Shown here piece by piece: positions 26,048 to 32,912 of a stretch of 64,000 bases of DNA. Source of the DNA: Halorhabdus rudnickae (GTDB taxonomy: Archaea; Halobacteriota; Halobacteria; Halobacteriales; Haloarculaceae). A model generated the notes under the pieces. That model was given only the letters and a program-made list of their open reading frames with translations. It searched no databases and was not told where the DNA came from. The translations under genes and the position numbers were made by a program. Location of the stretch: NCBI RefSeq assembly GCF_900880625.1, contig NZ_CAAHFB010000001.1, positions 124,001 to 188,000 of the forward strand, in the 5' to 3' direction. How positions within the stretch are numbered: the first letter of the stretch is position 1; each line of letters begins with the position of its first letter.

Positions 26048-26674
26048 TCAACGCGGCTCCGCACACAGCGCCAGGTGGTCGTCGTGATACGGCTCCAGGC
26101 GTTGTCGGGTGCGGATCTCGTAGCCGGTCTGCAGAGAGTCGATCACATCCTCGAAGACGGCCTCCGGCGAACGCGTCACGTCCTCGCTCCGGGCCTTGAT
26201 CGCCATGAGCAGTCGGCCGTCGTCTTTCAGGAATCGGCGGTTGGCCAGCGCGACCGCCGCCTGTCCACGGGTCGCCACGTCCTGGACGATCACGTCGACC
26301 GGCTCGACGACGTGGGCGTAGGTCTCGGGCGCGCGAGCGTCCTTCAACAGCGGGAACAGTCGCTCGCGCTCGCGGGCCACGTCCAGCAGGTCCCGCGTCG
26401 GCCGGGCGGCGAACTCCACGGCGTAGGTCGGCCCCGCGAAGTCCGCGACGTGACTGACGGTCGTCCCGCTGGCCGCGCCGAGGTACAGCACCGTTTCACC
26501 GCCACTCAATCCCGTCTCGACGCCCTTCTCGAGCATCGCGCCGAGCTTCGACCGTTCGGGATCCCACCGCCGCCAGCCCTCGACGACCGGCTCGCCGTAG
26601 ACGGGGGGTCCCCGTGTCGCAAGCGCTTCCTCTCCGTCGAAGACCCGTCGTTCGACACCTTCGGGGAGACTCAT
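26048..26674 (-). CDS. flpA: fibrillarin-like rRNA/tRNA 2'-O-methyltransferase
   Basis: 208 residues. The catalytic subunit of box C/D RNPs, which uses SAM to methylate ribose at sites chosen by guide RNA. The SAM-binding loop is [17 protein letters not shown], preceded by the [18 protein letters not shown] start of the domain. [13 protein letters not shown] contains the DxxQ-type active-site region, and AIKARSEDV contributes the conserved lysine. It overlaps the 3' end of nop5 by four bases (ATGA), so both subunits are co-translated. Confidence 0.96.
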
Positions 26675-27516
26675 TGCCCACCTCGTGAGCGGATAGCCGC
26701 GATGCGTTCGTCGAGTTCGGCGTCGAGTTCGGGGCGTCGATCCCCGCTGTAGTGGTCGATCCGGGCCGCGATCGTGAGTTTCCCGGCCAGCGCCCGGGCC
26801 GCCGACCCGCGCTCGTGCGGGTCGGTCCCACTGACGTACTCGTGGGTGTAGATGACGCCGTGCTTGGGCGATGGGGCCGACCCCTGGAGGTGGGCAAAGA
26901 GCGCGTCCTCCGCACCCAGCACCTGGACTGTTCCGCTGGGTTTTTTCGCCAGCGCTTCGAGACCGCCGGCCAGCGAGATCAGTCGTGCCGCGAGCACCGG
27001 CCCGGCGAGCGCCGAGAGGTTCGGTGCGACGTCGGGCGCGGTCGCCTCGACGTGCCGTCGCAGTGCCGCGGACTCATCAGTCAGGTCGGCGACACGACGG
27101 GCGAGTGCGATCAGCCGCCTTTCGAGTGGATCGGACGGCTCCCGCGTCGCGAGTTCCCGAGCGTACTCGACGCCGGTCCCGGCGTCCGAAAAGCGGGTCC
27201 CGGCCCACTCGGCGACGCGCTCGGCGAGTTCGTTCGCGGTCCGCTCACAGTCGTTCATAGCACGAATACTATGTTTTAATTGTTGGTCATCTGACCTTTC
27301 ACGTTCCCGAACTTCTTCGCGGGTTGCCGCAATCGTCGCTTCGTGAAGCTTGTCGTAATAGTCGTCTTCGTCGTCGGCGAACCCGGCTTCGACCGCCCGT
27401 GCCGGCCAATCCGCCGGGGATTCGGACATCCCGTGTTCGATCGCGTCACGGGCACCGCTAAGGTCGTCGGGGTCGACGTCTTCGAACCACCCCGAACTGG
27501 TCGCGTCGTCGGTCAT
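26671..27516 (-). CDS. nop5: Nop5/Nop56-like box C/D RNP protein, hybrid gene with element-derived 5' end
   Basis: 281 residues. Scaffold of archaeal box C/D methylation RNPs, binding fibrillarin with its N-domain and L7Ae/RNA with its Nop domain (VAPNLSALAGPVLAARLISLAGG, then GVIYTHEYVSG). Residues 1-89 are encoded by AT-richer codons (for example CAA CAA TTA AAA CAT AGT ATT CGT), whereas codon 90 onward is typical GC-rich host sequence. A second nop5 5' end with host composition sits 5.4 kb upstream at 32622-32912. The gene is therefore a fusion made by element insertion, with the frame and presumably function preserved. Its promoter now comes from the element. Confidence 0.92.
   Translation of the reverse strand: MTDDATSSGWFEDVDPDDLSGARDAIEHGMSESPADWPARAVEAGFADDEDDYYDKLHEATIAATREEVRERERSDDQQLKHSIRAMNDCERTANELAERVAEWAGTRFSDAGTGVEYARELATREPSDPLERRLIALARRVADLTDESAALRRHVEATAPDVAPNLSALAGPVLAARLISLAGGLEALAKKPSGTVQVLGAEDALFAHLQGSAPSPKHGVIYTHEYVSGTDPHERGSAARALAGKLTIAARIDHYSGDRRPELDAELDERIAAIRSRGGQ
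27250..27258. repeat. left element-host junction (att core) inside nop5
   Basis: GTCGTTCAT (minus strand ATGAACGAC, encoding Met-Asn-Asp) aligns with ATCGTCCAT at the right junction (32643-32651, Met-Asp-Asp). Left of it the sequence is host-like nop5; right of it codons turn AT-rich. The crossover must lie within or next to this stretch. Just inside, 27262-27272 is ACGAATACTAT, the mirror of the right-end arm. Confidence 0.7.
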
Positions 27517-27569
27517 GGTCAGAAAGAATTACGGGAATCGTATATGAATCCCGGTATCAGGGTAGAATA

Positions 27570-28079
27570 GTGGTCAACGTATCTGCGATTGTTGCATCCG
27601 CATTTATTGGGGCGGTAGCAACCGGACTAATCACGTTGTTAGTTAGGGAACTTAGAGGGATACTGAATACGCGAAGAAGGCGTGAACGGTTCCGTGAATC
27701 ATTAATTGGCGAAATAGATGCAGGGACCAGTAACGTAGAAACGGCTGAGATCGTGACAGAAGTTGGTGGTGGGATGATGCCAACTAGTGTATTCGACAAC
27801 GGGACGGACAAGCTGGGGTTGTTGACTGAAGACGAAATTCAAGAAGTCACGTCATATTATGCAAGTGCTGAAAAAATAAACGCCCTTGCCGAACGTATCA
27901 CATTAAACCCCGAAGAAGCAAATGACCCGGATTCCCGCCGTGAAACCCCATTAGCAAGCGCGTATTATTCTGAAAGAGATTATGCTATAGAACAGGGGGG
28001 AGACGCTATCACCAAAATTCAACAAAGCAAATCGGAAGTTGGCCTACGTGCATACATTTCCGACTTTCTAAACCGATAG
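27570..28079 (+). CDS. membrane-anchored hypothetical protein of the integrated element
   Basis: 169 residues from GTG 27570. One N-terminal transmembrane helix, about residues 5-27 (VSAIVASAFIGAVATGLITL), is followed by a basic stretch RGILNTRRRRERFRE and a soluble domain of about 120 residues. The gene is clearly AT-richer than host genes. It is transcribed divergently from the hybrid nop5 with only 53 bases between starts, so both share an element-supplied promoter region. No family recognised; a superinfection or host-membrane role is possible but unsupported. Confidence 0.75.
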   Translation: MVNVSAIVASAFIGAVATGLITLLVRELRGILNTRRRRERFRESLIGEIDAGTSNVETAEIVTEVGGGMMPTSVFDNGTDKLGLLTEDEIQEVTSYYASAEKINALAERITLNPEEANDPDSRRETPLASAYYSERDYAIEQGGDAITKIQQSKSEVGLRAYISDFLNR

Positions 28080-28094
28080 CAATTCTGAGCTAAA

Positions 28095-29294
28095 TTAGAC
28101 GCCGAATTTGTATATCCGTTCACGGTAAAGCGGTTCTATATCTCCGTAGTAGCTATGGATATAGTGGTCTATGCCACCCGCCGGGTCGACCGTACCGCCT
28201 GCCGACGTATCTCCGCGCATATACTTGATTAGTTCGCGGTTCACGTCTTCTTCGACCCGCCAATACGTCGTGAATCGGTGCCGACCGTAGTGTGACGTCA
28301 CCGCCCGGTGTTGCTGATTTTCTTCGTATTTCGGGTGGAAGTGACGCTTCCACGCGTTGTTTATCGCTTCGTCATCGACCTTTGTGTTATTCGTCCGACT
28401 AAGGAATAGCCACGGTTCGTCGGCTTCCGGGCGGATAAGCAGGTAGTTAATCCATAGTCGGCGAAGTTCGTCGTCAATCGGCAAGACGCGGGGCCGCTTC
28501 GATTTGTTGCCTTCCCGGTCGTGCGGGATGTAGACGGAATTTTCGAAGGGTTTGACGTGCGGTGACACCCCCAAGTCGTCGTAGTGTCGGGCGACTTCGC
28601 GGTTCGCTATGTCGATTTCGCTAATCTTGATATTCGCCATTTCCGACGCCCGAAGCCCCAACTTCAGTTGGGTGACGATGAACGCCCGATCGCGGATATG
28701 CTTCACGTCAGCGACGACGTCGCGCAAGTCGTCGACGCTAATCCGGGGCGGTTCCTTCACCCGCTTGGTCGATAGCGATAGGCGTTGTTTCGCTTCCAAG
28801 AACGGGTTATATTCGGTCGGGTGGGGCATTTTGGAACTCCGTTGCCACATCGTATAAATCGAATTCAAGTTCCACAGTTTCTTCTTCGCGGTTCGGCGGC
28901 TATTCCCCCAGCTGTCTTCGGTGTCGATTTTGATTTCCGGGCCGTTTCGCCAATAGCGATCGACCTTGTTCCGAACCCACGCGCCGTCGGTCGTATCGTG
29001 TTCGGGGCGACTGTCGCCCGGTTCGATTTCCATGCGTACGAACCGGGTAATGTGCTCAGAATTCGGGCACGCCGGGTGCCGGTCTTGGGTCGTCATGAAT
29101 TCGCACCAATCCCGAACCGCCGCGTTGTAGGACGCAATCGCGCCTTCGGACAAGTCCTTGTTTGCTAAGACTTCGTCAAAGGCGAAATCGAACGGGTCGG
29201 CGTCGATTTCTTCGAACTTGTGTCCGTACTTTGCTAATGGATCGGTTTCAAGACCGAATGCATCGGCGAATTCTTGTCCGTTTGTATCTAACAT
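28095..29294 (-). CDS. int: tyrosine recombinase/integrase
   Basis: 399 residues. The core-binding domain covers about residues 40-175 and the catalytic domain 185-399. Catalytic candidates are R215 in LKLGLRASEMANI, a lysine in GNKSKRPRVLPI (264/266), the H335-x-x-R338 motif in TSHYGRHRFTTYW, and a tyrosine among Y378-Y383 in DHYIHSYYGD. The usual LGH box is replaced by YMRGDTS, so the second histidine is not obvious. ATG 29294 (MLDTNGQEF) is preferred over the frame open to 29420, which overlaps the upstream gene. It presumably catalyses insertion into nop5. Confidence 0.9.
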   Translation of the reverse strand: MLDTNGQEFADAFGLETDPLAKYGHKFEEIDADPFDFAFDEVLANKDLSEGAIASYNAAVRDWCEFMTTQDRHPACPNSEHITRFVRMEIEPGDSRPEHDTTDGAWVRNKVDRYWRNGPEIKIDTEDSWGNSRRTAKKKLWNLNSIYTMWQRSSKMPHPTEYNPFLEAKQRLSLSTKRVKEPPRISVDDLRDVVADVKHIRDRAFIVTQLKLGLRASEMANIKISEIDIANREVARHYDDLGVSPHVKPFENSVYIPHDREGNKSKRPRVLPIDDELRRLWINYLLIRPEADEPWLFLSRTNNTKVDDEAINNAWKRHFHPKYEENQQHRAVTSHYGRHRFTTYWRVEEDVNRELIKYMRGDTSAGGTVDPAGGIDHYIHSYYGDIEPLYRERIYKFGV

Positions 29295-29299
29295 TTGTG

Positions 29300-29815
29300 T
29301 CACCGTTTGTCGTTTTGTTCTAACTTCCGTCCCCACACGTCGCCCGCGAAACCTCCATCGACGACCGCCATTCGCACCGGGTGGTAGACGTGCGGGTGGT
29401 CGACATGCGATTGTAGCCACGAATAGAATTCGTCGATCGGTTGAAAGTATTCGAAGTAGACCGTTTGAAGCTTCCGCGTATGGTTGTGACGCCCGACGTC
29501 GCCGTCACGCAAGGCGACTAGGAACCGTTCGATATGACGCGGGGCGGCTAACGCGTGGTGCCGCCCGACGTCGGCCATGAACGTCTTGAAGTACCGACCC
29601 GCCTTTTCGTAGCGGTCGCGTGTCGACTTCGTGTCGAACTTCGCCGTCTTGTCGTCGAAGAAGTCCCCCCACACGTCGCGGGCGTCGTACGCCGCGCTAT
29701 GGTTCCGAAGGTGGTACTTGTCGGGCACGTCGTCGATCGTTTTGTAGACCCCCATACGGTGCCGGACGTCGTCGGATAACCGGGGTCGGTCTTTGGGGGC
29801 CGGCACTATACCCAC
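29300..29815 (-). CDS. stand-alone integrase core-binding-domain-like protein
   Basis: 171 residues from GTG 29815. The central part, TRDRYEKAGRYFKTFMADVGRHHALAAPRHIERFLVALRDGD then YFQPIDEFYSWLQSH and HVYHPVRMAVV, has the helical pattern of a SAM-like/core-binding domain of tyrosine recombinases, but no catalytic domain follows. The gene stops five bases before the integrase ATG and its start overlaps the upstream regulator by ten bases, so all are one operon. A DNA-binding accessory factor for integration or excision is a reasonable inference; the assignment rests on pattern only. Confidence 0.65.
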   Translation of the reverse strand: MGIVPAPKDRPRLSDDVRHRMGVYKTIDDVPDKYHLRNHSAAYDARDVWGDFFDDKTAKFDTKSTRDRYEKAGRYFKTFMADVGRHHALAAPRHIERFLVALRDGDVGRHNHTRKLQTVYFEYFQPIDEFYSWLQSHVDHPHVYHPVRMAVVDGGFAGDVWGRKLEQNDKR

Positions 29816-30264
29816 CCCCGGTCGTCGGCGACTTCGTCACGCAGGTAATAACCGTCGTCGTCGGCCCGCAAGATGTCGCCTTCCATGTCTTCCAAGTGGG
29901 AAGTGACCCGACCGGCGGCGGTGTCGATAATGTGTTGCACTATGTCGTCGTACGTCGCGCCGGGGTTCGATTCGACGTATTCGGCGATAGCTTGCCGTTC
30001 GCCGTGATAGACCGCGTCTTCAAGTTCGTCGATACGGTCGCGGGCACGGTCAAGTTGGGTCTTTAGGTCGTTCCGTTGTTCCCGAAGTTCCCGGTTCGTT
30101 TCGTCGGGTTCGACCGACGCGGCGTCGAACTTCTTCAACCCGGCTTCGACCATAGCTTCGATGAATTCCGACCGCGACCGGAACCCCAATTCGTCGACCC
30201 GTTCTTCCCACCGTTCTAATTGGTCGTCGTCGGGGTAGGTAGCGACGTGCGTGTAATCACCCAT
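29806..30264 (-). CDS. DNA-binding regulator: RHH-like N-terminus, coiled coil, C-terminal winged helix
   Basis: 152 residues. Residues 5-48 look like a ribbon-helix-helix dimer unit (THVATYPDDDQLERWEERV, then FRSRSEFIEAMVEAGLKKF). A charged coiled coil follows at about 57-90 (TNRELREQRNDLKTQLDRARDRIDELE). The last 60 residues (QAIAEYVESNPGATYDDIVQHI, VTSHLEDMEGDI) resemble a winged helix. Such architectures are common in haloarchaeal plasmids and viruses as copy or lysogeny regulators. It overlaps the next upstream gene by eight bases. Confidence 0.75.
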   Translation of the reverse strand: MGDYTHVATYPDDDQLERWEERVDELGFRSRSEFIEAMVEAGLKKFDAASVEPDETNRELREQRNDLKTQLDRARDRIDELEDAVYHGERQAIAEYVESNPGATYDDIVQHIIDTAAGRVTSHLEDMEGDILRADDDGYYLRDEVADDRGWV

Positions 30265-30499
30265 CGTCGACCACCCACAAGTTCACGTTCCCGACCTTCC
30301 GCCGGTCGATCGTCCCGTCGTCGGCCATTTGTCGAAGCTTCTTGTACGCCAATTCGTACGAACACCCGACGGCGTCGGCGACGTCTTTCGTGCCGGTCGC
30401 CCCGCCGTCGGCTTCGATAGCCGCGACGAAGTCGTCGGGCGGGTATTCTTCCGTGAATTGCCCGGTTTCGTCGTCGCGGTCGCGTTCGTCTGGTGCCAT
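30257..30499 (-). CDS. small winged helix-turn-helix DNA-binding protein
   Basis: 80 residues. An acidic leader precedes a wHTH: DDFVAAIEADGGATGTKDVADAVGCSYELAYKKLRQMADDG, with a wing TIDRRKVGNVNLWVV. It is first in the operon running through the RHH protein, the core-binding protein and the integrase. Upstream at 30508-30518 and 30546-30556 are two copies of GTTTGTATTGG, which may be its operator. Likely an autoregulator controlling integrase expression (inference). Confidence 0.75.
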   Translation of the reverse strand: MAPDERDRDDETGQFTEEYPPDDFVAAIEADGGATGTKDVADAVGCSYELAYKKLRQMADDGTIDRRKVGNVNLWVVDDG

Positions 30500-30507
30500 T
30501 ACAATTA

Positions 30508-30556
30508 GTTTGTATTGGGATAGGCACTTAGCCCTTTCCCAAGCCGTTTGTATTGG
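30508..30556. repeat. two direct repeats GTTTGTATTGG upstream of the integrase operon
   Basis: Identical 11-base copies at 30508-30518 and 30546-30556, 38 bases apart (start to start), lie directly upstream of the wHTH gene (which starts at 30499, minus strand). AT-rich runs sit beside the first copy. Spacing of about 3.6 helical turns suits cooperative repressor binding. Operator function is inferred. Confidence 0.45.
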
Positions 30557-30778
30557 CTAATCGGGTCGGTTCGACCGCCGAAGAAGCAAGTGTCGACCGC
30601 CGGGGTCGTCGTAATCGCACCCGCCGATCGCCGACGGAAGTAGCCCAATCCCGACGACGTCGAAGCCCACGTCTTCGAAGTCCGACACCCGCGCCGCACG
30701 CGGGCCGTGTGCCGGCGTCACGACGTGCGTGACGGCGTCGTCGAAGTAGACGGTGCGTGTTGGATTACTGACGACCAC
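30557..30778 (-). CDS. small hypothetical protein of the integrated element
   Basis: 73 residues from GTG 30778. Composition is protein-like: RTVYFDDAVTHVVTPAHGPRAARVSDFEDVGFDVVGIGLLPSAIGG. No family recognised. The frame is open further upstream without another plausible start codon. It follows the neighbouring small frame by 16 bases on the same strand, suggesting an operon, and ends at the second GTTTGTATTGG repeat. Function unknown. Confidence 0.5.
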   Translation of the reverse strand: MVVSNPTRTVYFDDAVTHVVTPAHGPRAARVSDFEDVGFDVVGIGLLPSAIGGCDYDDPGGRHLLLRRSNRPD

Positions 30779-30794
30779 GACGCGAATGGGGCCG

Positions 30795-30968
30795 TCATTC
30801 GTCCGGCACGCCCCCGTCTGTCACCGCCGTCGCGTTCATCAACCGATTCATTTCGTCGTCGACGTCGTCGGGGTCGTCGCCGTCGAAGTGGGCGACGCAC
30901 GCGTCGAAGTCTTCGAAGGTTTCCCCGTCGGGGCCTTCGATCGGCTTGTCGATTGGTTCGTTCTACAT
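30795..30968 (-). pseudogene. small acidic protein frame with an amber codon directly after the ATG
   Basis: On the minus strand ATG at 30968 is followed immediately by TAG. An open frame of 55 codons then reads EPIDKPIEGPDGETFEDFD, CVAHFDGDDPDD and ends VTDGGVPDE. The phrase GETFEDFDACVAHF resembles small haloarchaeal plasmid/virus proteins that begin a few residues earlier, so the frame looks genuine but its second codon is a stop. No other in-frame start exists before two internal ATGs near its end. A one-base substitution, a sequencing error or an unrecognised start are the options. Confidence 0.4.
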
Positions 30969-31104
30969 ACGGCGACCCTAAAACGACGCACGGGCGGTGC
31001 GTACGTCCCTTTAGTCCGTTTTACCCCCCACCCGTCCCCGACCGGGTCGCACGGCTATTGGGCGGGAAACCGCAAGACGGCGAACTAAAACGGGGTAAAA
31101 CGGT

Positions 31105-31506
31105 CTACCGAACGAATTGCTTCAAGATACGCCGGTTCAGATCGGTCGTTTCGTCGGCCTTCGCCCACTTGTCGACCCACTTGTAGAAGGTCGGTTCGGA
31201 CACAAAGCCGTATTCGTCGGTGTCGTAATGCGACGCGGCTTCAAGTTCGCTATTGATTCGTCGTAAGGCCCCGCGAATCGACCCTTCTTTTTCCAAGACG
31301 TGCGGAAGTAGTTGGGGCATATCGTAGCAAAGGGCGAATTCGATTTCGATTTCGCGGTCGCTTGGAACCGTGTGGTCGTAATCGGCGTCTTTGCGTAGTT
31401 GCCGACATTCCCGCTTGTCTTCGGCGACCCATTCTTCGAAGCGTTCCCGCGTCAATTCCTTCCGTTGTTCGCGCCGATATTCGTGAACGTCGATTTGTTC
31501 GGGCAT
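31105..31506 (-). CDS. hypothetical element protein, possibly DNA-binding
   Basis: 133 residues. Highly charged N-terminal helix (VHEYRREQRKELTRERFEEW), then a segment EIEIEFALCYDMPQLLPHV and a C-terminal part FVSEPTFYKWVDKWAKADETTDLNRRILKQF that could be a helix-turn-helix. No family recognised. ATG 31506 lies 65 bases from the first of four GTGTATAG/CTATACAC repeats in the divergent region, so it could bind them as an initiator or repressor. That link is by position only. Confidence 0.65.
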   Translation of the reverse strand: MPEQIDVHEYRREQRKELTRERFEEWVAEDKRECRQLRKDADYDHTVPSDREIEIEFALCYDMPQLLPHVLEKEGSIRGALRRINSELEAASHYDTDEYGFVSEPTFYKWVDKWAKADETTDLNRRILKQFVR

Positions 31507-31570
31507 TTCGATCGACCCTAATGACGTCTATGTCCGGGGGGTACTTTCGTTTAATTCCGTTTAGGGGCGC

Positions 31571-31690
31571 TATACACATATCAGGGAAACCGCCGGACGG
31601 CGGGGTGTATAGTGGTGTGTTTAGTCGATGGTGCCCGCTATACACGCCGGTAAACAGTCGGCGATAATCGCCCGACGGGGCGGTGTATAG
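31571..31690. repeat. four CTATACAC/GTGTATAG repeats in two inverted pairs
   Basis: CTATACAC at 31571-31578 and 31638-31645, and its reverse complement GTGTATAG at 31606-31613 and 31683-31690, alternate across 120 bases. Both pairs enclose GC-rich palindromic spacers (for example CCGCCGGACGGCGG between the first pair). A further inverted repeat, GTTAG-atttg-CTAAC, follows at about 31702-31716. Four copies of an 8-mer in the only divergent non-coding region of the element suggest a replication-origin iteron set or a multi-site operator. Confidence 0.6.
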
Positions 31691-31789
31691 TCGGATAAAC
31701 AGTTAGATTTGCTAACTATCCGCCGGCCAGCTACCCGAACGTAGGTCGTATTCGAAAATACCTAACTATCCTCCGTATGATGTTATCGT

Positions 31790-32167
31790 ATGGCAACAAA
31801 AGGCCACCCGATCGACGTTCTTACTGAATTGACGTCGGGCGATAAAGTCCGGCTTCATTTTGATGATTCACACCACACGTCGCGGTTTCAGCCTGATTCA
31901 CCTTGGGATACAACCGTCCGATATTCAATATCGTCGCGGAAAGACCATCAAGAAGGGCATGACGTAGACGAGATTGTGACCGAAACTGAAGTCTATTTTG
32001 AAGTTCCGCCCGAAGACGACGACGCCGATGAATACTATATGATTCACAAAAGCCCAATGGTCGGGGATGAAACCGTCAGTATTCTTCTTTACAAAGAAGA
32101 CCTATCCGGAAAACATTACGCTACGGGCGGGATAGCCGGCGTTTCGAAGATAGAAGTTCTTGATTGA
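31790..32167 (+). CDS. hypothetical element protein, related to the convergent neighbour
   Basis: 125 residues beginning MATKGHPIDVLTELTSGDKVRL. Acidic, predicted beta-rich. It shares layout with the convergent 122-residue gene: an early L-x-SGD motif, a mid-protein Glu/Asp-rich strand, a tyrosine-containing strand (EYYMIHKSP versus EKYTMEYTIH) and a final basic-hydrophobic strand (GVSKIEVL versus VGRIERIG). AT-rich codon use marks it as element DNA. Function unknown; first gene to the right of the repeat region. Confidence 0.65.
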   Translation: MATKGHPIDVLTELTSGDKVRLHFDDSHHTSRFQPDSPWDTTVRYSISSRKDHQEGHDVDEIVTETEVYFEVPPEDDDADEYYMIHKSPMVGDETVSILLYKEDLSGKHYATGGIAGVSKIEVLD

Positions 32168-32181
32168 AGCAGGGTCTTCGT

Positions 32182-32550
32182 TTACTGATTCCCAATTCGT
32201 TCGATCCGACCGACGACTTCGCTTCGGGTCGTCGGGTTGTCGGACTTCACAGGCGAATATTCCGTATATCCGTCCCGATGAATAGTGTATTCCATTGTAT
32301 ACTTTTCATCTGTTGATTTGGGTTCGAATGTAATCTTATATGTCGTAGACCGGGTATGTATTCGTCGATTTTCTTCGTCATGAAAATAACCATCTTCTTC
32401 ATTCCGTTTCCATTTCATATTAGAAACTACGTTCCACGTCTTCGGGTTGTCCATGTCGTCAATAGTACCGGACGGGGAATTCGGTCGAAGCCAAACTTCA
32501 ATTTCATCCCCTGATTCAAGCGCACGAATTCCGATCGGGTCGTGTTCCAT
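32182..32550 (-). CDS. hypothetical element protein, paralogue-like of 31790-32167
   Basis: 122 residues beginning MEHDPIGIRALESGDEIEVWLRP. Predicted small beta-barrel with conserved aromatic positions. The SGD-x(3)-V/L start, the KYTMEYTIHRDGY strand and the VVGRIERIG end align with the convergent neighbour, suggesting an inverted duplication or a two-gene family. AT-rich. The downstream side faces the neighbour (stops 14 bases apart) and the upstream side faces the right end of the element. No motif indicates function. Confidence 0.65.
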   Translation of the reverse strand: MEHDPIGIRALESGDEIEVWLRPNSPSGTIDDMDNPKTWNVVSNMKWKRNEEDGYFHDEENRRIHTRSTTYKITFEPKSTDEKYTMEYTIHRDGYTEYSPVKSDNPTTRSEVVGRIERIGNQ

Positions 32551-32621
32551 ATCGAATAATGCTGTTTGAAGTGGTTAAAATCCCCGTGCCCCACATTATC
32601 CGCCCTAAGCAAAACTGGGTT

Positions 32622-32912
32622 TTATAATAGTATTCGTCTTTTATCGTCCATCGAGCGCACGGCGTGGATCAACTGCTGATCGTCCGCCCGTTCGCGCTCG
32701 GCGACCGCCGCGTCGGTGGCCTCGATCGTCGCGTCCCGGAGTCGGTCGTAGTATTCCGACTCGTCGTCTACGAACCCGGCGTCGATCGCCTCGTTCGGCC
32801 ACGCTTGGGGTCGCTCCGCGGATCCCTCACTGATCGACGCCGCGGCCGCGGCCACGTCGTCGGGATCGACGTCCTCGAACCACCCCGTGTTCCCGGGGGT
32901 GCTGGCAGTCAT
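32622..32912 (-). pseudogene. nop5: stranded 5' fragment of the original host nop5
   Basis: 96 codons: WFEDVDPDDV near the start and ERERADDQQLIHAVRSMDD at the end are the Nop5 N-terminus, matching WFEDVDPDDL and ERERSDDQQLKHSIRAMND of the intact gene. Residues 1-90 use GC-rich host codons. After Met-Asp-Asp the frame runs into element DNA (KRRILL) and stops at TAA. It keeps the native ATG at 32912 and presumably the native promoter, so a short peptide may still be made. It marks the right boundary of the insertion. Confidence 0.85.
32627..32651. repeat. right element-host junction with integrase arm
   Basis: ATAGTATTCGT at 32627-32637 is the exact reverse complement of ACGAATACTAT at 27262-27272. 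Five bases later comes the junction core ATCGTCCAT (32643-32651), equivalent to GTCGTTCAT at the left. On excision the two arms would face each other around the core, giving a tyrosine-recombinase-like palindromic attP. Confidence 0.65.

Follow-up and report, generated by a model that had tools for sequence, protein, structure and literature searches.

A site-specific integrative element of Halorhabdus rudnickae that very probably supplies the 5′ segment of nop5

Introduction

In a 64,000-nucleotide stretch of the Halorhabdus rudnickae genome (contig NZ_CAAHFB010000001.1, positions 124,001–188,000; the window), nop5 has two N-termini and a single C-terminus, and there are no further nop5 matches elsewhere in the genome. 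This raises the question of how one gene acquired two 5′ ends and what role, if any, the DNA between them played. The initial annotation proposed that an element inserted within nop5 repairs the gene that it cuts with a 5′ part and promoter of its own, leaving the host 5′ end stranded. We find it very probable that this is a site-specific integrative element supplying a nop5 5′ segment and promoter that are fused in frame to host codon 90 onward.

Results

Two nop5 5′ ends flank a 5.4 kb element

The nop5 locus of the window has the following organization:

26048–26674, minus strand: fibrillarin gene, the usual downstream neighbour of nop5 and its neighbour also in the same-genus locus L111 (93% identical)
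26671–27516, minus strand: full-length hybrid nop5, an ORF of 281 aa with a Nop domain (PF01798, E 7e-40)
26671–27249, minus strand: host-derived nop5 3′ part, codon 90 onward, sister to G068 nop5 and 87% identical to L111 nop5
27259–27516, minus strand: element-borne nop5 5′ coding segment, codons 1–86, assigned from identity, tree position and lack of GAG/CTC
32622–32912, minus strand: stranded native nop5 5′ end, an ORF of 96 aa, sister to G068 (99/87)

Both nop5 ORFs are present on either side of an element of about 5.4 kb, as had been described. The hybrid protein has a predicted fold similar to that of the box C/D RNP Nop5 3pla (E 7e-12). The stranded ORF consists of 87 host codons (32652–32912) followed by a 9-bp core, six foreign codons and a stop, and its product ends in RSMDDKRRILL, in agreement with the earlier description of a copy that runs through Met-Asp-Asp into foreign codons.

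The two halves of the hybrid gene differ in composition. GC3 is about 0.65 in the N part, 0.82 in the C part and 0.86 in the stranded copy; the bias reported between the two halves is thus present, although the N part is 'AT-rich' only in a relative sense. GC content is about 0.63 for the host part of the window but drops to 0.54 within the element. GAG/CTC is strongly depleted in the element as a whole (12 seen, 120 expected), and the hybrid N segment lacks it entirely (0 against an expected 6.5), whereas the host part of the window has nearly the expected number (2359 seen, 2576 expected). GAG/CTC avoidance is a sharper mark of the foreign segment than codon GC.

The two halves of the hybrid have separate origins

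If the stranded 5′ end and the hybrid 3′ part are joined at the core, an open gene of 282 codons results that is 85% identical to the uninterrupted nop5 of L111. Identity to L111 nop5 is 80% for the stranded N part and 87% for the shared C part, versus 63% for the hybrid N part. The native, uninterrupted gene that the annotation had predicted in a sister is therefore present in L111, with the same fibrillarin neighbour, although this empty site is in a sister species of the same genus and not in another strain of the same species. The element very probably swaps the first third of nop5 for its own version.

We compared the phylogenies of the two halves using 60 C parts and 71 N parts, with the att-site columns excluded from the N tree, which has just 69 columns and weak deeper forks. 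The C parts of 17 hybrids scatter with same-genus natives, with 14 label changes against a shuffled mean of 14.9, whereas the hybrid N parts cluster, with six label changes against a shuffled mean of 15.4 and none of 500 shuffles as low. Stranded 5′ ends lie beside same-genus natives in 8 of 11 instances in the N tree: the window's groups with L111 (99/87), three group with g28 natives, and the G047, G365, G032 and G263 ends each group with their own genus. The G446 end pairs with a g25 native (the genus code of G446 is not given), and the placement of the G134 and G050 ends is not settled by this tree. Hybrid C parts thus track the host phylogeny and hybrid N parts one another, a pattern that we take to be decisive for separate origins; the trees are incompatible with a hybrid N part that descended within the host. 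The hybrid N parts form several clusters, suggesting that the element segment has been replaced or acquired more than once.

These trees bear on whether nop5 could instead have been duplicated in tandem, after which one C-terminus was lost, one N-terminus drifted, and the element inserted between the copies by chance. The two N-termini do have the same orientation, and one genome of the family (G083) has two nop5 copies; however, the hybrid and stranded N parts are not sisters, the hybrid one turns up in other families alongside integrases of this clade and matching att arms, and all hybrids have their junction at the same 9 bp. Two ancestral full-length genes, which the annotation had named as the contrary case, are also not the rule, as almost all of the 146 family genomes have one. 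A duplication origin is refuted by the trees and the shared junction, and we regard it as extremely unlikely.

The junctions have the organization of an att site

The element is 5.39 kb long (about 27,258–32,651) and is inserted at the conserved Met-Asp-Asp of nop5 codons 87–89, with these features at its ends:

27250–27258, minus strand: attL core ATGAACGAC (Met-Asn-Asp), codons 87–89 of the hybrid
32643–32651, minus strand: attR core ATGGACGAT (Met-Asp-Asp), in the stranded copy
27262–27272, minus strand: left att arm ATAGTATTCGT, inside coding sequence (His-Ser-Ile-Arg codons) and conserved among 19 loci
32627–32637, minus strand: right att arm ACGAATACTAT, an inverted repeat of the left arm

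In the window, these arms are perfect inverted repeats of one another over 11 bp, with a 17-bp spacer. The attL and attR cores are identical at 7 of 9 positions in the window and at 9 of 9 in several relatives; the crossover point would be somewhere within the 9-bp core, and the window cores differ at two positions. In G032, ATGGCCGAC is present in attL and attR alike, as expected if identity of the attP and attB cores matters. The 19 hybrid genes, from five families, have CAT-AGT-ATT-CGN-GCN with few deviations directly before ATGGACGAC, and the left-arm codons CAT-AGT-ATT are present in 17 to 18 of the 19. By contrast, 40 native genes have GC-rich codons at the left-arm position, mostly CAC-GCN-GTN or CAC-GCN-ATC. 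In 11 stranded copies the host codons continue as far as the core, beyond which lies an arm like AGAATACTATTATAG.

The core encodes part of the RAMDD motif, which is also present in the solved Sulfolobus Nop5, and lies within a long helix (76–108) of the predicted Nop5 model; such deep conservation of the target would explain a broad host range. The att signature is found in 16 of 392 sampled Halobacteriales genomes from 11 genera, a count that includes two genomes (G131 and G418) with one mismatch and no element within 18 kb, and a reversed control pattern is found in none, indicating that the signature occurs more often than by chance. G131 and G418, together with G116, are possible fossils, but this is uncertain.

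Could the N part have been exchanged with a foreign nop5 by ordinary homologous recombination, with the element uninvolved? Haloarchaea recombine across species, and the two N parts in the window are 56% identical. Such an exchange is nonetheless very unlikely, as the junction is the att core with the halves of the 11-bp inverted repeat split between the gene copies, the native 5′ end is still there, and the segment shares the element's GAG/CTC avoidance. The identity of the joined flanks, the trees and the att arms together argue that the element does repair the gene it cuts with its own 5′ part.

A putative element promoter precedes the hybrid gene

One further feature lies just upstream of the hybrid gene:

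27540–27545, minus strand: TATA-like ATATAC, a putative element promoter, 29 bp before the hybrid start codon

Of 17 elements, 15 have ATATAC or ATTTAC at −29/−30 relative to the start codon of the hybrid; the G047 and G050 elements lack ATATAC and have TCTATG at −30. This is where the TATA box of an archaeal transcript with almost no leader would be expected. In G134 and G263 the box is inside the last codons of an integrase gene that ends just before nop5, and in other elements the surrounding sequence resembles a relic of an integrase end. This conservation of position lends support to the proposed takeover of the nop5 promoter by the element.

The element encodes an intact integrase and small cargo proteins

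Between the two nop5 5′ ends are eight genes:

27570–28079, plus strand: 169-aa cargo protein, an ORF with no Pfam, PHROG or PADLOC match
28095–29294, minus strand: tyrosine recombinase, 399 aa (PF00589, E 3e-10), with R, K, H-x-x-R and Y conserved
29300–29806, minus strand: accessory protein, 168 aa, distantly related to the integrase N-terminal domain
29806–30264, minus strand: ribbon-helix-helix DNA-binding protein (RHH_1, E 4e-5), a conserved neighbour of the integrase
30257–30499, minus strand: small transcriptional regulator (phrog_18890, E 2e-14)
31105–31506, minus strand: 133-aa protein of a phage family (phrog_37024, E 1.5e-7)
31790–32167, plus strand: 125-aa protein, an ORF
32182–32550, minus strand: 122-aa protein, an ORF

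With its catalytic residues, a shared core and an empty site in a relative, this is a tyrosine-recombinase element. The 168-aa protein aligns with the integrase N-terminal domain (hhalign 97.4%, E 9e-12); as a candidate Cre-like fold, it has a structural match below significance. The cargo consists of four small proteins without assigned function, and a comparison of two small cargo proteins found no relation between them. Among the window element's proteins we found no match to defence genes, no conjugation genes and no virion structural genes (Pfam, PHROGs), and it is not classed as a provirus. An Rfam search found only a tRNA-Leu nearby.

We considered whether the window element is a dead, fixed insertion. 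Only one copy of it is present, no replication gene is recognised in it, and degraded remains are present at other nop5 sites (L152, L122, L118); but the integrase is intact with its catalytic residues, both att arms are intact, and the stranded copy is intact up to the core. We regard a dead insertion as fairly unlikely.

One mechanism would account for the locus. The tyrosine recombinase would act on a short core, ATGGACGAC, recombining the attP of the element with the attB of nop5; this core encodes the conserved Met-Asp-Asp close to where the Nop5 coiled coil begins. The element would bring along a promoter and a nop5-like 5′ coding segment with attP at its end, and integration would fuse this promoter and codons 1–86 in frame to host codon 90 onward, yielding full-length Nop5, while stranding the host promoter and 5′ end, which would run into the att arm and stop. 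We infer that ATATAC drives the hybrid nop5, that the accessory DNA-binding genes have a helping or directing role in recombination, and that excision would restore the native gene.

Related elements occupy nop5 across haloarchaea

Stranded nop5 5′ ends, for which a wider search had been suggested, are present in ten other haloarchaeal genomes, and in most of these a related integrase, or what is left of one, lies between the two ends; the locus is not a single unusual case but one of a widespread element family. Both hybrid and stranded ends are found in 11 genomes, including a Natronomonas MAG, Halobellus captivus and Natrinema gari, and the distance between them ranges from about 1 kb in G032 to some 75 kb in G047, which may not be one element; in G217 and G263 they are on different contigs. 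The closest full-length relatives of the integrase are within about 8 kb of nop5, and nine integrases from nop5 sites, among them a broken N. gari copy, group in a single clade separate from their relatives (100/99). A broken relative that is not at nop5 (L063, 62% identical over the C-terminal half) falls outside this clade. The ribbon-helix-helix protein, the 168-aa protein and the integrase recur together as a module, preceded in some instances by the small regulator.

We also searched for a free copy with attP (i.e. an excised circle, plasmid or virus) and found none in the viral, plasmid and phage sequences searched. The viral contigs have neither the integrase nor the att signature, plasmids give only distant integrase matches, and the phage collection, from which SNJ2 may be missing, gives none. 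The one Nop5 N-terminus matched on a plasmid belongs to an ordinary nop5–fibrillarin pair on a 987-kb Natrinema replicon. Among the more distant integrases, none is beside a tRNA, and 5′ swaps by them are not supported: in G149, the most suggestive case, a HAD-like gene is directly downstream of the integrase, with no second 5′ end in the genome.

Among the N segments of seven related elements, dN/dS is 0.11–0.33 (0.14 between G047 and G050), with Natrinema-group pairs too alike to be judged, and the element-borne segment is under purifying selection in these relatives. This could reflect a functional takeover in which the element's N part alters Nop5 (e.g. fibrillarin binding), or an element that has become hard to lose. 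The swapped segment makes up roughly one third of the protein, and some stranded copies have decayed (G032 has an in-frame stop, and the G446 and G365 cores are altered), such that loss of the element would then cost nop5. Purifying selection is, however, expected for plain function and the C-terminal Nop domain is untouched, making takeover or entrenchment distinctly unlikely.

Several related elements carry defence genes

Four related elements carry type I-B cas genes, all with CRISPR arrays of roughly 50 to 130 repeats. We identified cas6, cas8b, cas7, cas5, cas3 and cas4 in the Natrinema gari element, cas6, cas8b, cas1 and cas2 in that of H. captivus, and cas6, cas8b, cas7, cas3, cas1 and cas2 in that of G050; the G352 element is assigned to type I-B from matching gene lengths and order only. 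The Natronomonas element has a methyltransferase with PbeA- and PbeC-like proteins, and restriction-like genes are present in other related elements. Several nop5-site relatives are defence islands. The broader proposition that nop5 elements are a dedicated vehicle for immune systems (type I-B, Pbe-like and restriction-like), combined with functional takeover or lock-in of Nop5, is speculative and rather unlikely.

Discussion

The initial annotation considered targeting of a gene from its 5′ side unusual. This holds in that we found no archaeal protein-gene case in the literature searched, but there are precedents in SXT/prfC, dusA islands and pTN3-type elements. Bacterial dusA islands replace the gene 5′ end and promoter (PMC4482086; IMEVchUSA3 in PMC8409611) and, like the window element, leave the old 5′ end beyond the island. 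They replace about 35 residues, compared with 86 of 281 here, and their expression has been measured, whereas the nop5 hybrid is known from sequence. The SXT ICE in prfC (Hochhut and Waldor 1999, cited in PMC8409611) similarly has a 5′-end target and provides a new promoter and N-terminus, but is a bacterial conjugative element, whereas we saw no conjugation genes in the window element. The window element targets a protein gene in its 5′ part and very probably supplies a new in-frame N-terminus, and in these respects belongs with such gene-replacing islands.

Among archaeal systems, SNJ2-type haloarchaeal integrases, as reviewed in PMC8371274, are likewise tyrosine integrases whose operon includes two small genes, one for a DNA-binding protein, but target the 3′ end of a tRNA gene rather than nop5. 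The pTN3-type integrases take the 5′ half of a tRNA gene, which is then expressed from an element promoter (PMC8371274). Their target is a tRNA gene and their integrase is suicidal, whereas the window's att site is in the nop5 segment and its integrase gene is whole, so it is not of the suicidal (SSV/pTN3) type. Thaumarchaeal elements also enter protein genes and rebuild the reading frame, but all 14 protein-gene sites are reported at the 3′ end (PMC6563490). The literature searched, which leaves out most subscription papers, has no mention of nop5 as an integration target. As far as could be checked, the 5′-replacement logic is already known, and what is new is the domain of life, the target, the replaced extent and the link to mobile CRISPR-Cas.

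With the window element and its relatives, 5′-end gene replacement now includes a core RNP gene of archaea and spans many genera, one codon stretch doubling as an integrase site and a conserved protein motif. Some Nop5 N-termini in databases would be of element origin, and some short 'hypothetical' ORFs would be stranded gene ends. If takeover were true, the box C/D RNP would be altered, or the element locked in once the stranded 5′ end decays. For haloarchaea, the findings provide a named integration hotspot with a simple DNA signature for finding it, and a likely route for the movement of complete CRISPR-Cas systems.

Features of the element in nop5

The 168-aa protein encoded beside the tyrosine recombinase (window 29300-29806, minus strand) is, judged by its sequence, distantly related to the N-terminal domain of the integrase, and it is missing the catalytic domain. 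GAG/CTC is nearly absent from the element (27258-32643), with 12 occurrences observed versus 120 expected when both strands are counted; the host part of the window has 2359 versus 2576 expected. Strong depletion was not found in the sister elements. This scarcity suggests that a 3-base motif is avoided, possibly as a result of past restriction. A non-coding stretch contains a possible control or replication site, a candidate suggested by its repeats, both of which end in GTGTATAGT:

positions 31588-31691 of the window, a pair of 26-bp repeats with 85% similarity, 78 bp apart

Other nop5 loci

The nop5-site element of a Natronomonas metagenome-assembled genome (locus L110) has the following cargo, among which a protein with gyrase-C-type propeller repeats is interspersed:

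within L110:6546-14388, type II methyltransferase with PbeA- and PbeC-like proteins

In loci L112 (genome G122) and L113 (genome G126) nop5 is apparently broken across frames, reflecting either assembly errors or decay.

A putative CRISPR array, seen as a repeated motif in translation, lies downstream of the L064 integrase, a more distant relative. Four nop5-site elements (L107, L119/L120, L117/L118 and L121/L122) contain type I-B cas genes together with long CRISPR arrays, and nop5 therefore appears to be an integration hotspot for mobile CRISPR-Cas.
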